The notes under the pieces are model-generated. The model made no database searches and was not told the DNA's origin. It saw only the letters and a program-made list of their open reading frames with translations. Below, piece by piece: positions 52,654 to 56,489 of a DNA stretch of 64,000 nt; positions within the stretch are counted from its first letter, which is position 1; the number at the start of each line of letters is the position of its first letter. The DNA is from Halostagnicola kamekurae (GTDB taxonomy: Archaea; Halobacteriota; Halobacteria; Halobacteriales; Natrialbaceae), in contig NZ_FOZS01000001.1 of NCBI RefSeq assembly GCF_900116205.1, forward strand, positions 620,001-684,000, written 5' to 3'. The position numbers and the translations under genes were made by a program.

Positions 52654-53979
52654 TCAGGCGAGCGCCGCCATCGACAACACGATCAACGCGCAGAAAATCG
52701 CTCCACTGAGTGTCGCGAGGAAGTTCACGCCCTGGTTGCCGAGTCTCGTCCCCTCGAGAGTCGCCCCCAGGACGCTGTCGACGAGCATCCCGACGAAGCC
52801 GGCAGCGGCGATGATCGCCGCGCCGACCGCGCCCACTTCGGTGAAAAAGCCGAACGAAAGCGCCGCGACGATCGCCGAGCCGACGAAGCCGGCGAGGGTC
52901 CCCTGCCAGGTCACGCCGCCGTCGGTTCCGGGGTCGACCGGCTCGAGCGTCGTGATCAAAAGCGGCTCGTCGAAGACGCTCCCGACCTCGCTCGAGAGCG
53001 TGTCGCTCATCGCGGCGGCGACCGATCCCGCGAAGGCGAACAGAAACAGTTCGGACTCGGCGGGGACTATCTCGGCGGAGCTGGCAGCGTAGCCCAGCAC
53101 GGCGGCGAGGCCGACTGCGGAGTTGCCGAGCACGTTTCCGCTGCCACGAGCGCCGGCGTTGTCCTCGGCGACGCCGCGACTCTCCTTCTCGTCGTATCGA
53201 AACTTCGTCGAGAGCCCGCCGATGCCGAAAAAGGAGATGAGGACGACGAACCAGCCGTACCCGCCGAGGACGATGGTCAACAGGCCGAGCAAGACGCCGG
53301 TCAGCATCCCGGCGATCGAGGCCGTATCGAGCGCGTAGGAGACGTAGCCGAGCGCGATCGTCACCGCGAGGGCGGCGAGGATCTCGACCGGCCCGATCGC
53401 CGTCTCGAGTTCGGCGAGCAACCAGAGCAACAGGCCGACCGACAGCATGATAACCGGATCGTCGTACAGCAGGAGAACGTCCCGCAGTAGCGCCGCGAGG
53501 AGAACGCCGCTGGCGGCCAGAAAGAGGACCGCCGGGAGCGCGGACTCGAGCGAGTCGCCGGTGATCGAGATCGTCGCGATCTGGCCGGCGACTCCGGCGA
53601 CGGCACCCCCGACACAGAACGCGGCGACGGAGCGGACCCCCTGGTCGAAGCGACGGCGAGCGAGTCGCTCCGCGAGGTTGCCGTAGCCGACCAGCACCAC
53701 CGTCCCGACGAGCACGGAGACGGGCATCGAGAACGCCGTGGTGAAAAACCCGAGGATGCCGGCGCCGAAGACGAAGGCGATGACGCCGTAGAGGCGGCCG
53801 TCTTCGTAGTCGTCCGGATACGCCAGGAGGTCGAAGAGTCGACCCTCGGTGACGACGAGCGCGCCCAGAATCACCACCGAACCGAGTATGAGCCCGATCT
53901 CCGGCCCGAAGAGCGGAAGGACGAGCGACAGCGTCGAGAGCACTGCGAATGCGCCGGCTCGCCAGACGGGTGCTGTCAC
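52654..53979 (-). CDS. DUF92 family membrane protein
   Basis: 441 residues with about eleven membrane spans. The DUF92 family includes plant VTE6, a phytyl-phosphate kinase, so a polyprenyl-phosphate kinase role is a possible inference here. The conserved GSVAAAMSDTLSSEVGSVF and GTLAGFVGSAIVA lie in the C-terminal half. It neighbours the two cis-prenyltransferase genes, which suits lipid-carrier metabolism. Haloarchaeal members carry an extra N-terminal membrane part, as here. Confidence 0.82.
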   Translation of the reverse strand: MTAPVWRAGAFAVLSTLSLVLPLFGPEIGLILGSVVILGALVVTEGRLFDLLAYPDDYEDGRLYGVIAFVFGAGILGFFTTAFSMPVSVLVGTVVLVGYGNLAERLARRRFDQGVRSVAAFCVGGAVAGVAGQIATISITGDSLESALPAVLFLAASGVLLAALLRDVLLLYDDPVIMLSVGLLLWLLAELETAIGPVEILAALAVTIALGYVSYALDTASIAGMLTGVLLGLLTIVLGGYGWFVVLISFFGIGGLSTKFRYDEKESRGVAEDNAGARGSGNVLGNSAVGLAAVLGYAASSAEIVPAESELFLFAFAGSVAAAMSDTLSSEVGSVFDEPLLITTLEPVDPGTDGGVTWQGTLAGFVGSAIVAALSFGFFTEVGAVGAAIIAAAGFVGMLVDSVLGATLEGTRLGNQGVNFLATLSGAIFCALIVLSMAALA

Positions 53980-54145: not shown

Positions 54146-54406
54146 TCACCGCGAAAGACGTCCCAAGACGTACCGTCGAAGGGGTGACGGAACGGCCCCC
54201 TCGGCTACGATGTAGAGCCCGAGACCGACCATCGCCACCGCGGCGGATGATCCGAGCAGGGCGAGAACGCCGGAAACGTGGTCCTGCGTGAACGCAGATA
54301 TCGTTCCGATGCCCAGATAAAACCCGAGTGGGACGGCCAGAAGCAAGATCGCGAGCGTGATACCCGATCGGATCACCGACTCGACGACGACATCGGAGCT
54401 ACCCAT
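54146..54406 (-). CDS. small membrane protein (86 aa)
   Basis: 86 residues with hydrophobic segments at about 13-34 and 43-67, starting MGSSDVVVESVIRSG and ending in a basic RRYVLGRLSR. It is probably a two- or three-span membrane protein. Unnamed family. It sits between the DUF92 and UppS-like genes on the opposite strand to the latter. Confidence 0.62.
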   Translation of the reverse strand: MGSSDVVVESVIRSGITLAILLLAVPLGFYLGIGTISAFTQDHVSGVLALLGSSAAVAMVGLGLYIVAEGAVPSPLRRYVLGRLSR

Positions 54407-54554: not shown

Positions 54555-55160
54555 GTGGGACTGTACGAGCGATACCTGACACACCGGATCGGTCGCTACG
54601 ACGCCGACGGTCCCGACCACGTCGCGCTCGTCATCACGGAACGCGACCTCTTAGAGGAGGACGCCTACGAGACGCTCTCTGCGTTCTTCGAGTGGGCGTT
54701 CGAGTACGCGAACCGCGTGACCGTCTACGTCAGCGTCCTCGACGCCGCGGCGGTGCCGACGCTTCGCAACGACCTCGAGACGATCGAAACGCCTCGAGAG
54801 AGCGCGGTTCGCGGGCCGGACGACCGAATTCCCGCGGACGCGCCGATCCAGATCGGCATCGGCCTCGGCGGCAAACACGAGTTTACGAGCGCTGTCCAAA
54901 CGCTTGCGACTGGCGTCGACGAGGGCGAACTCGAGCCCGAAGATATCGACGACGAATCAGTCGAAGAGCACCTGATCTTCCCCTCCGAACCCGACCTCGT
55001 CATCAAGACCGGCGCCGAGCGGCTCTCGGATTTCATGATCTGGCAGTCGGTCTACTCGGAACTGTACTTCACCGACGTCAACTGGCGCGATTTCAGACGG
55101 CGAGACTTCCTCCGGGCGGTCCGCGAGTTCCGTAACCGCTCCCGCCGGTTCGGCGAGTAG
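54555..55160 (+). CDS. UppS-like cis-prenyltransferase homologue lacking the catalytic aspartate
   Basis: 201 residues from GTG 54555 (VGLYERYLTHRIGRYD). The C-terminal half keeps the cis-prenyltransferase region V, KTGAERLSDF and WQSVYSELYFTDVNWRDF (about 151-180). The N-terminal region I, normally DGNRR with the catalytic Asp, reads HVALVITERDLL (22-33), so the Asp and phosphate-binding residues are missing. It is also about 110 residues shorter than the neighbouring UppS. It may be a non-catalytic partner subunit like eukaryotic NgBR/Nus1; this is inference. Confidence 0.82.
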   Translation: MGLYERYLTHRIGRYDADGPDHVALVITERDLLEEDAYETLSAFFEWAFEYANRVTVYVSVLDAAAVPTLRNDLETIETPRESAVRGPDDRIPADAPIQIGIGLGGKHEFTSAVQTLATGVDEGELEPEDIDDESVEEHLIFPSEPDLVIKTGAERLSDFMIWQSVYSELYFTDVNWRDFRRRDFLRAVREFRNRSRRFGE

Positions 55161-55182
55161 GATTCGGCGTCCGCAAGCGCCG

Positions 55183-55416
55183 TTATTTATCCGAAGAGCG
55201 ATCGATGCGCTCGAGGTCGACGTACGACCGAAACGTCAGGACGACGCCGATGGAAAGCGACGCGAAGAACCCGCCGATCAGGGCGAAATCGGCCGGTCGG
55301 TACTGATCGGCGGCGTCGCTCGGGTGCTGTAAGACACCGGTGACCAGAAGGTATCCCAGTCCGATGACGCCGAGCAGGGTCGCCGCGAGCCCGATCGCGA
55401 AGAGTCGCCGATCCAT
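55183..55416 (-). CDS. two-TM small membrane protein (77 aa)
   Basis: 77 residues from MDRRLFAIGLAATLLGVIG. Hydrophobic segments at about 6-27 and 46-63 flank a polar HPSDAADQYRP loop. The start at 55416 precedes the first segment directly; the frame is open further upstream without conserved features. It lies between the two prenyltransferase genes, upstream of which (same strand) is uppS, so it may be co-transcribed with uppS. Confidence 0.65.
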   Translation of the reverse strand: MDRRLFAIGLAATLLGVIGLGYLLVTGVLQHPSDAADQYRPADFALIGGFFASLSIGVVLTFRSYVDLERIDRSSDK

Positions 55417-55550
55417 CCTGTCCGGTCGTTTCGCGTGTTGGCGATTCAACGTTTCGATCGGTAACCGGCGCCGGCTCCCGACGCTTCGGACTCGCATCGA
55501 TTCGGGCCGCCGTCGTTGGATCTAGTCCGCGGCCGGTCCACCAACTCGAG

Positions 55551-56489
55551 TCAGTCCGCCGCCTGTCCGCCGGCCTCGAGCCCCTCTGTCTCCTCGTCTT
55601 CGTCGGGCCGTTCGCCGGTGGGAAGCGAGTCGCGGAACCGATCGACGATCGACTTCGCCTCCGAGAGTTCGGGCTCGCTGACGGCACCGAGCAGCGCGAG
55701 GGCGCGGCGAGCGCGGGTGCGACGCCAGGAGGCCTCGCGGTGCTCGTAGGTGCGGATCCCGCGGAGGAAGTCGGGTTTGGAGAACTCCGGCCAGTAGGGC
55801 GTACAGAAAAAGACCGCGGCCTCATTGCCGTTGGCGTGCCATGGCAGGAAGTTCGAGGTCCGCTCGTCGCCGCCCGTTCTGATGATCAGGTCGACGTCTC
55901 TGACTGTCCGATCGTAGAGGCGCGATTCGATCGTTTCGACGTCGATCTCCTCGGGTGCGATGTCGCCTTCGTCGACGTCTCGAGCGACGCTTCGGGCGGC
56001 ACTGAGCAGTTCCGTGCGCCCGCCGTAGGCGAGCGCGATGTTGAGGACGAACCGATCGTGGCCGCGGGTTCGCTGCTCTGCGTACTCGACTGCGTCCTGT
56101 ACGCGCTCGGGAAGTCGCTCGACGTCGCCGAGGACGCGGATGCACACCTCGTTGTCGTGAACGCGGTCAGCGTCGGCGAACTCGTGGAGTTTCTCACGGA
56201 GGAGGTCGAACAGCTCCTCGTTTTCCTCGTCCGGTCGATCGAAGTTCTCCGTCGAGAAGGTATAGAGGGTCAGTTCCTCGACGCCGACGTCCTGACACCA
56301 CTCGAGGACGCGCTCGGTCGTTTTCGCGCCGGCGCGGTGGCCGTCGGGTGCGTCGTCGCCGTGCTGGCGCGCGTAGCGCCGGTTTCCGTCCTGAATCACG
56401 GCGACGTGGGTGGGAGCGCCGGAGATTTCCCTCGAGAGGAGTTGCTCGTAGGCCCGGTCGACGCGTCGGCGAAGCCACCGCTTCATCAC
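55551..56489 (-). CDS. uppS: cis-prenyltransferase (undecaprenyl diphosphate synthase family)
   Basis: 312 residues. Elongates an allylic diphosphate with isopentenyl diphosphate to make the lipid carrier for glycosylation. The catalytic Asp is in VAVIQDGNRRYA, FSTENFDRP marks region III and RTGGDERTSNFLPW region V. A C-terminal extension of about 50 acidic residues is disordered. Archaeal enzymes of this kind make dolichol-type carriers. The start is MMKRW at 56489 or the adjacent Met. Confidence 0.95.
   Translation of the reverse strand: MMKRWLRRRVDRAYEQLLSREISGAPTHVAVIQDGNRRYARQHGDDAPDGHRAGAKTTERVLEWCQDVGVEELTLYTFSTENFDRPDEENEELFDLLREKLHEFADADRVHDNEVCIRVLGDVERLPERVQDAVEYAEQRTRGHDRFVLNIALAYGGRTELLSAARSVARDVDEGDIAPEEIDVETIESRLYDRTVRDVDLIIRTGGDERTSNFLPWHANGNEAAVFFCTPYWPEFSKPDFLRGIRTYEHREASWRRTRARRALALLGAVSEPELSEAKSIVDRFRDSLPTGERPDEDEETEGLEAGGQAAD

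Follow-up and report, generated by a model that had tools for sequence, protein, structure and literature searches.

Two genes of the cis-prenyltransferase family at the locus

The window analysed (a 64,000-nucleotide stretch of the Halostagnicola kamekurae contig NZ_FOZS01000001.1, positions 620,001 to 684,000) contains two genes that match the cis-prenyltransferase (cPT) family PF01255 and encode proteins of 201 and 312 amino acids, hereafter named the short and the large protein. These genes, their motifs and a neighbouring gene were located as follows.

52654-53979, minus strand: DUF92 membrane protein (PF01940, 198.8 bits), divergent to the short gene
54555-55160, plus strand: short, putatively non-catalytic cPT-like subunit (201 aa, GTG start), matching the C-terminal half of the PF01255 profile
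54630-54653, plus strand: VITERDLL (residues 26-33 of the short protein), which in the alignment replaces the catalytic DGN.R loop
55002-55076, plus strand: region V, IKTGAERLSDFMIWQSVYSELYFTD (residues 150-174 of the short protein), near-invariant across the order
55146-55154, plus strand: C-terminal RxG motif, R198-F199-G200 of the short protein, one residue from its end (alignment)
55551-56489, minus strand: putative catalytic cPT subunit (312 aa, GTG start), PF01255 at 236.5 bits
55554-55721, minus strand: C-terminal extension of the large protein (residues 257-312), comprising in the AlphaFold2 model the end of a long helix, a second helix and a low-confidence acidic tail
55722-55730, minus strand: SWR (residues 254-256 of the large protein), aligned where homodimeric cPTs carry RxG
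56376-56390, minus strand: catalytic loop DGNRR (residues 34-38 of the large protein), invariant in alignment A2

Against the PF01255 profile (219 positions, curated Pfam cut-off of 27 bits), the large protein scored 236.5 bits over positions 1-216, and the short protein 92.8 bits over positions 117-219. The two proteins shared 37% identity over ~100 residues (E = 9e-19) and orthologues of the short protein were clear throughout the order (Halobacteriales) and the phylum (Halobacteriota), so their likeness is not due to chance. The nearest named relatives of the source organism were Halostagnicola species, whose short proteins showed 97% and 91% identity to this one. Both open reading frames, the DGNRR loop of the large protein and the VITERDLL segment that takes the place of the catalytic Asp loop in the short one were found as described in the initial annotation. 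According to that annotation the short protein kept only region V; region V was indeed retained, but so were a GGK.EF segment and the RxG motif, the sequence ending in RSRRFGE. The large protein lacks RxG and has a C-terminal extension of ~55 residues in its stead. No transmembrane stretch was detected in the short protein (the maximum of the 19-residue hydropathy profile was 1.01, and no window exceeded 1.6). The two genes are convergent and do not form an operon, with an ORF for a 104-aa membrane protein lying between them. A profile search of the source genome revealed no third PF01255 gene, and this pair is therefore its sole set of cPTs.

Co-occurrence and residue conservation across the phylum

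Of the 61 genomes formed by the source genome and 60 relatives, 60 carried a full-length PF01255 match (about positions 1-216 of the 219-position profile) together with a short one (~115-219), the single exception being a genome of 53% completeness. At the level of the phylum, PF01255 was found in 293 of 296 genomes, with exactly two copies in ~270 of them (counted from the table). Three genomes of family f24 (G067, G076 and G085, 86-91% complete) gave no PF01255 match, and hence both subunits are missing from them. Within the order, 48 of 59 short/large pairs lay within 10 kb and all 48 were convergent; among 40 genomes of other families, 15 pairs lay within this distance, 13 of them convergent. 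By chance, a pair within 10 kb would be expected in less than 1% of cases per genome.

The recurrent gene order in 80 named haloarchaeal loci was dnaG - DUF92 - short - large - DUF5778 - hemA. The large gene was scored near the short gene in 79 of these loci, although a few of the 79 matches are cross-similarity to the short gene itself, betrayed by their plus strand. DUF92 was found there in 76 of the 80, which bears out, as a neighbourhood, the link with the cPT pair that had been proposed initially. A DUF92/uppS link was already published in 2015 (PMC5898192), where a kinase step in isoprenoid metabolism was suggested, and the DUF92 protein probably belongs to the same pathway as the cPT pair. 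The intervening 104-aa membrane ORF (55183-55497, minus strand) is lineage-specific, occurring in only 8 of the 80 loci, and was for this reason not accepted as a third component. Between DUF92 and the short gene lies an 86-aa hydrophobic ORF (54146-54406, minus strand), which was present in only 2 of the 80.

For the residue counts, 79 short and 81 large proteins, drawn from the order and from other families of the phylum, were aligned with E. coli UppS, whose numbering is used here. Of the reference sequences, those of NgBR, Nus1 and DHDDS were verified against PDB chains. In this alignment the complete RxG motif (R242 and G244 both) was present in 78 of 79 short proteins and in none of the 81 large ones, whereas the full set of D26, N28, R30, N74 and R77 was found in every one of the 81 large proteins and in none of the 79 short ones. 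The positions of D26, N28 and R30 are mostly occupied by T, R and L in the short proteins, all 79 of which lack DGN, and the RxG tail is among the most conserved parts of this family (R in 78/79, G in 79/79). R-[FY]-G-x forms the C-terminus of all 52 short orthologues from the order, none of which contains DGN or DGH. Neither the short nor the large proteins combine the catalytic residues with a C-terminal RxG in one chain, as homodimeric UppS does. Because RxG lies on the short side and the five catalytic residues on the large side of these 160 proteins, each half is devoid of what the other half carries. This complementarity of the RxG motif is the decisive feature, and it was absent from the initial annotation. 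At the sequence level, the complementary loss and the lack of any other cPT in the genome support the division into a catalytic and a non-catalytic subunit of the DHDDS/NgBR type that the annotation had put forward. E213 was tried as a second complementary residue and dropped, since glutamate is present in 79/79 short and 76/81 large proteins.

Loss of the catalytic loop might also be read as the sign of a decaying, functionless duplicate. This origin of the short gene is extremely improbable, given that the gene is phylum-wide, its frame intact and its region V and tail almost invariant, and the pseudogene reading was rejected on this conservation.

Some divergent copies were also observed. 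The short subunit matched PF01255 weakly (39 and 33 bits) in L086 (genome G044) and in G059:C38:4372-4653 (order family f9), and in the G044 copy the ITERDLL segment is gone and region V altered, with the RRYGR end retained. L065 (G039:C1:478925-479599) is a third, very divergent haloarchaeal cPT with a DGHRR loop, no RxG, the tail LRRNEGR and a long branch in the tree.

Predicted structures and comparison with known enzymes

AlphaFold2 monomer models were obtained for both proteins (mean pLDDT 83). The model of the short protein shows one short helix where that of the large protein has the prenyl-tunnel helices, and with the tunnel-lining helices absent the short protein is unlikely to hold a prenyl chain. 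Its tail is flexible in the model (pLDDT 45). In the large model, the C-terminal helices (H238-269 and H272-284) were predicted with moderate confidence, and the last ~12 residues had a pLDDT of about 40. The eight best PDB matches of the large model were human DHDDS chains, aligned over 300 columns that include the C-terminal helices and ranking ahead of all bacterial UppS, a result that favours the DHDDS/NgBR-type reading, as do the Methanosarcina orthologues of both genes described below. NgBR was not among the top 50 Foldseek matches of the short model, the best of which were general cPTs with an rmsd of 5-6 Å, and the profile of the short family ranked E. coli UppS and DHDDS above NgBR.

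In cPT dimers the RxG motif reaches over the interface into the other subunit, where it takes part in the binding of Mg2+ and of the substrate phosphates (PMC8131916; PMC7573591). The tail of NgBR completes the DHDDS active site structurally, and the C-terminal region of DHDDS mediates the pairing of heterodimers (PMC7573591). Like DHDDS and yeast Rer2, the catalytic subunit of the archaeal pair lacks RxG and carries extra C-terminal helices; like NgBR, the non-catalytic one lacks the Asp loop and ends in RxG plus one residue, the human NgBR terminus being RLGK in the PDB chains. These likenesses support, as judged from sequence, that the haloarchaeal pair functions in the DHDDS/NgBR manner. 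The short protein differs from NgBR in having no N-terminal transmembrane domain, and the eukaryotic products are longer. As the membrane anchor is absent and shared descent is at most suggested by the tree (see below), the short protein was not classified as an NgBR. The large protein has the fold and the catalytic residues of homodimeric E. coli UppS, and RxG and region V are what the short protein shares with it; the bacterial enzyme unites both sets of features in one chain.

A precedent within the same phylum was provided by Methanosarcina. According to PMC8131916, which cites Emi et al. (2019), M. mazei MM_0618 and MM_1083, the two cPTs of this species besides MM_0014, were reported to form a heteromeric enzyme with C45-50 products, probably destined for a sugar carrier lipid. 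No report on the Archaeoglobus heteromer mentioned in the initial annotation was found in the literature search; M. mazei was the precedent found and is probably the one meant. The Methanosarcina genome G310 contains an orthologue of the short protein, an orthologue of the large protein and a third cPT near-identical to a solved MM_0014-like chain. The tree, and elimination within G310, identify MM_0618 and MM_1083 as probable orthologues of the short/large pair, and by this orthology the haloarchaeal pair would be a member of a known archaeal heteromeric kind. The genes are about 0.6 Mb apart in G310, whereas in haloarchaea they are mostly convergent neighbours. No biochemical work on the haloarchaeal pair was found in the searchable literature.

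The large protein might alternatively be a self-sufficient homodimeric polyprenyl synthase devoid of RxG, with the short protein acting as a separate regulator or in another role. MM_0014 is an active homodimer without RxG (PMC8131916). DHDDS alone is weakly active, with a kcat ~500-fold lower. Since both work in the absence of RxG, the large protein may have some activity of its own. Self-sufficiency is nevertheless unlikely, because throughout the phylum RxG is strictly partitioned, lost from the large protein and kept in the short one, because the genes occur together and stay neighbours, and because the homodimeric MM_0014 type is in Methanosarcina a third, different cPT. The MM_0014/MA1831-type enzymes belong to the same family and share the lack of RxG with the large protein, but they are homodimers, have a TLGG tail, make shorter products and fall on a separate branch of the tree.

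Formation of a complex would not by itself mean that the tail completes the active site, as the short subunit could serve only to stabilise the enzyme, place it at the membrane or control chain length. Yeast Nus1, which has Asn in place of the RxG arginine in an enzyme that still works (PMC7573591), would fit such a role. This role alone is very unlikely for the archaeal short protein, in which the arginine and glycine of the tail are highly conserved (78/79 and 79/79) at an NgBR-like position and no transmembrane stretch is present.

The explanation that we hold to be highly probable, on the basis of the sequences, the obligate co-occurrence and conserved convergent neighbourhood of the genes, the models, the Methanosarcina orthologues and the analogy with DHDDS/NgBR, is that both gene products are subunits of a single heteromeric cPT, with the RxG tail of the short subunit completing the active site of the large one. 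The 312-aa subunit, having lost its own RxG tail, would bind the allylic diphosphate and isopentenyl diphosphate and hold the catalytic residues and the prenyl tunnel. The 201-aa subunit, stripped of its catalytic loop and tunnel helices but retaining the C-terminal half of the domain with the RxG tail, would extend this tail across the dimer interface into the active site of its partner, as NgBR does for DHDDS. The predicted product is a C45-60 polyprenyl diphosphate, which would give rise to a dolichyl-phosphate sugar carrier, and heterodimers may pair through the C-terminal helices of the catalytic subunit. The physical complex, activity and product length of the haloarchaeal pair are inferred. 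Counting against this explanation are the convergent orientation of the genes, which are therefore not co-transcribed, and the fold and profile searches, which did not place NgBR closest to the short protein.

Evolutionary origin and significance

In the phylogenetic tree, the short and large proteins formed two groups, each with the Methanosarcina copies inside it, at moderate support (90/66 and 90/51). This topology is consistent with a single duplication before the phylum radiated. NgBR and Nus1 were placed on the short side (92/90) and DHDDS and Rer2 on the large side (92/78), all with long branches, which suggests common descent of the archaeal and eukaryotic pairs. A separate eukaryotic duplication was not rejected in the tree of the Halobacteriota and eukaryotic copies (AU test, p = 0.176). 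An origin of the eukaryotic DHDDS/NgBR split from an archaeal heteromer, with one ancient duplication giving rise to a short/NgBR line and a large/DHDDS line, is offered as a tentative and somewhat doubtful proposal.

Family models name both proteins undecaprenyl/polyprenyl diphosphate synthase. This label masks the likely incompleteness of each protein as an enzyme on its own, and assaying the large protein without its partner would be misleading. The heteromeric split, previously reported in one methanogen, very probably extends, to judge from the orthologues, across nearly the whole archaeal phylum. A pair of this breadth would make genetically tractable haloarchaea models for the DHDDS/NgBR mechanism (the RxG tail and the asymmetry of the dimer) without a membrane anchor. 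The origin of the eukaryotic heteromer is testable given Asgard and other archaeal copies and, if archaeal inheritance is true, the Halobacteriota pair would be the sister of a human disease enzyme.
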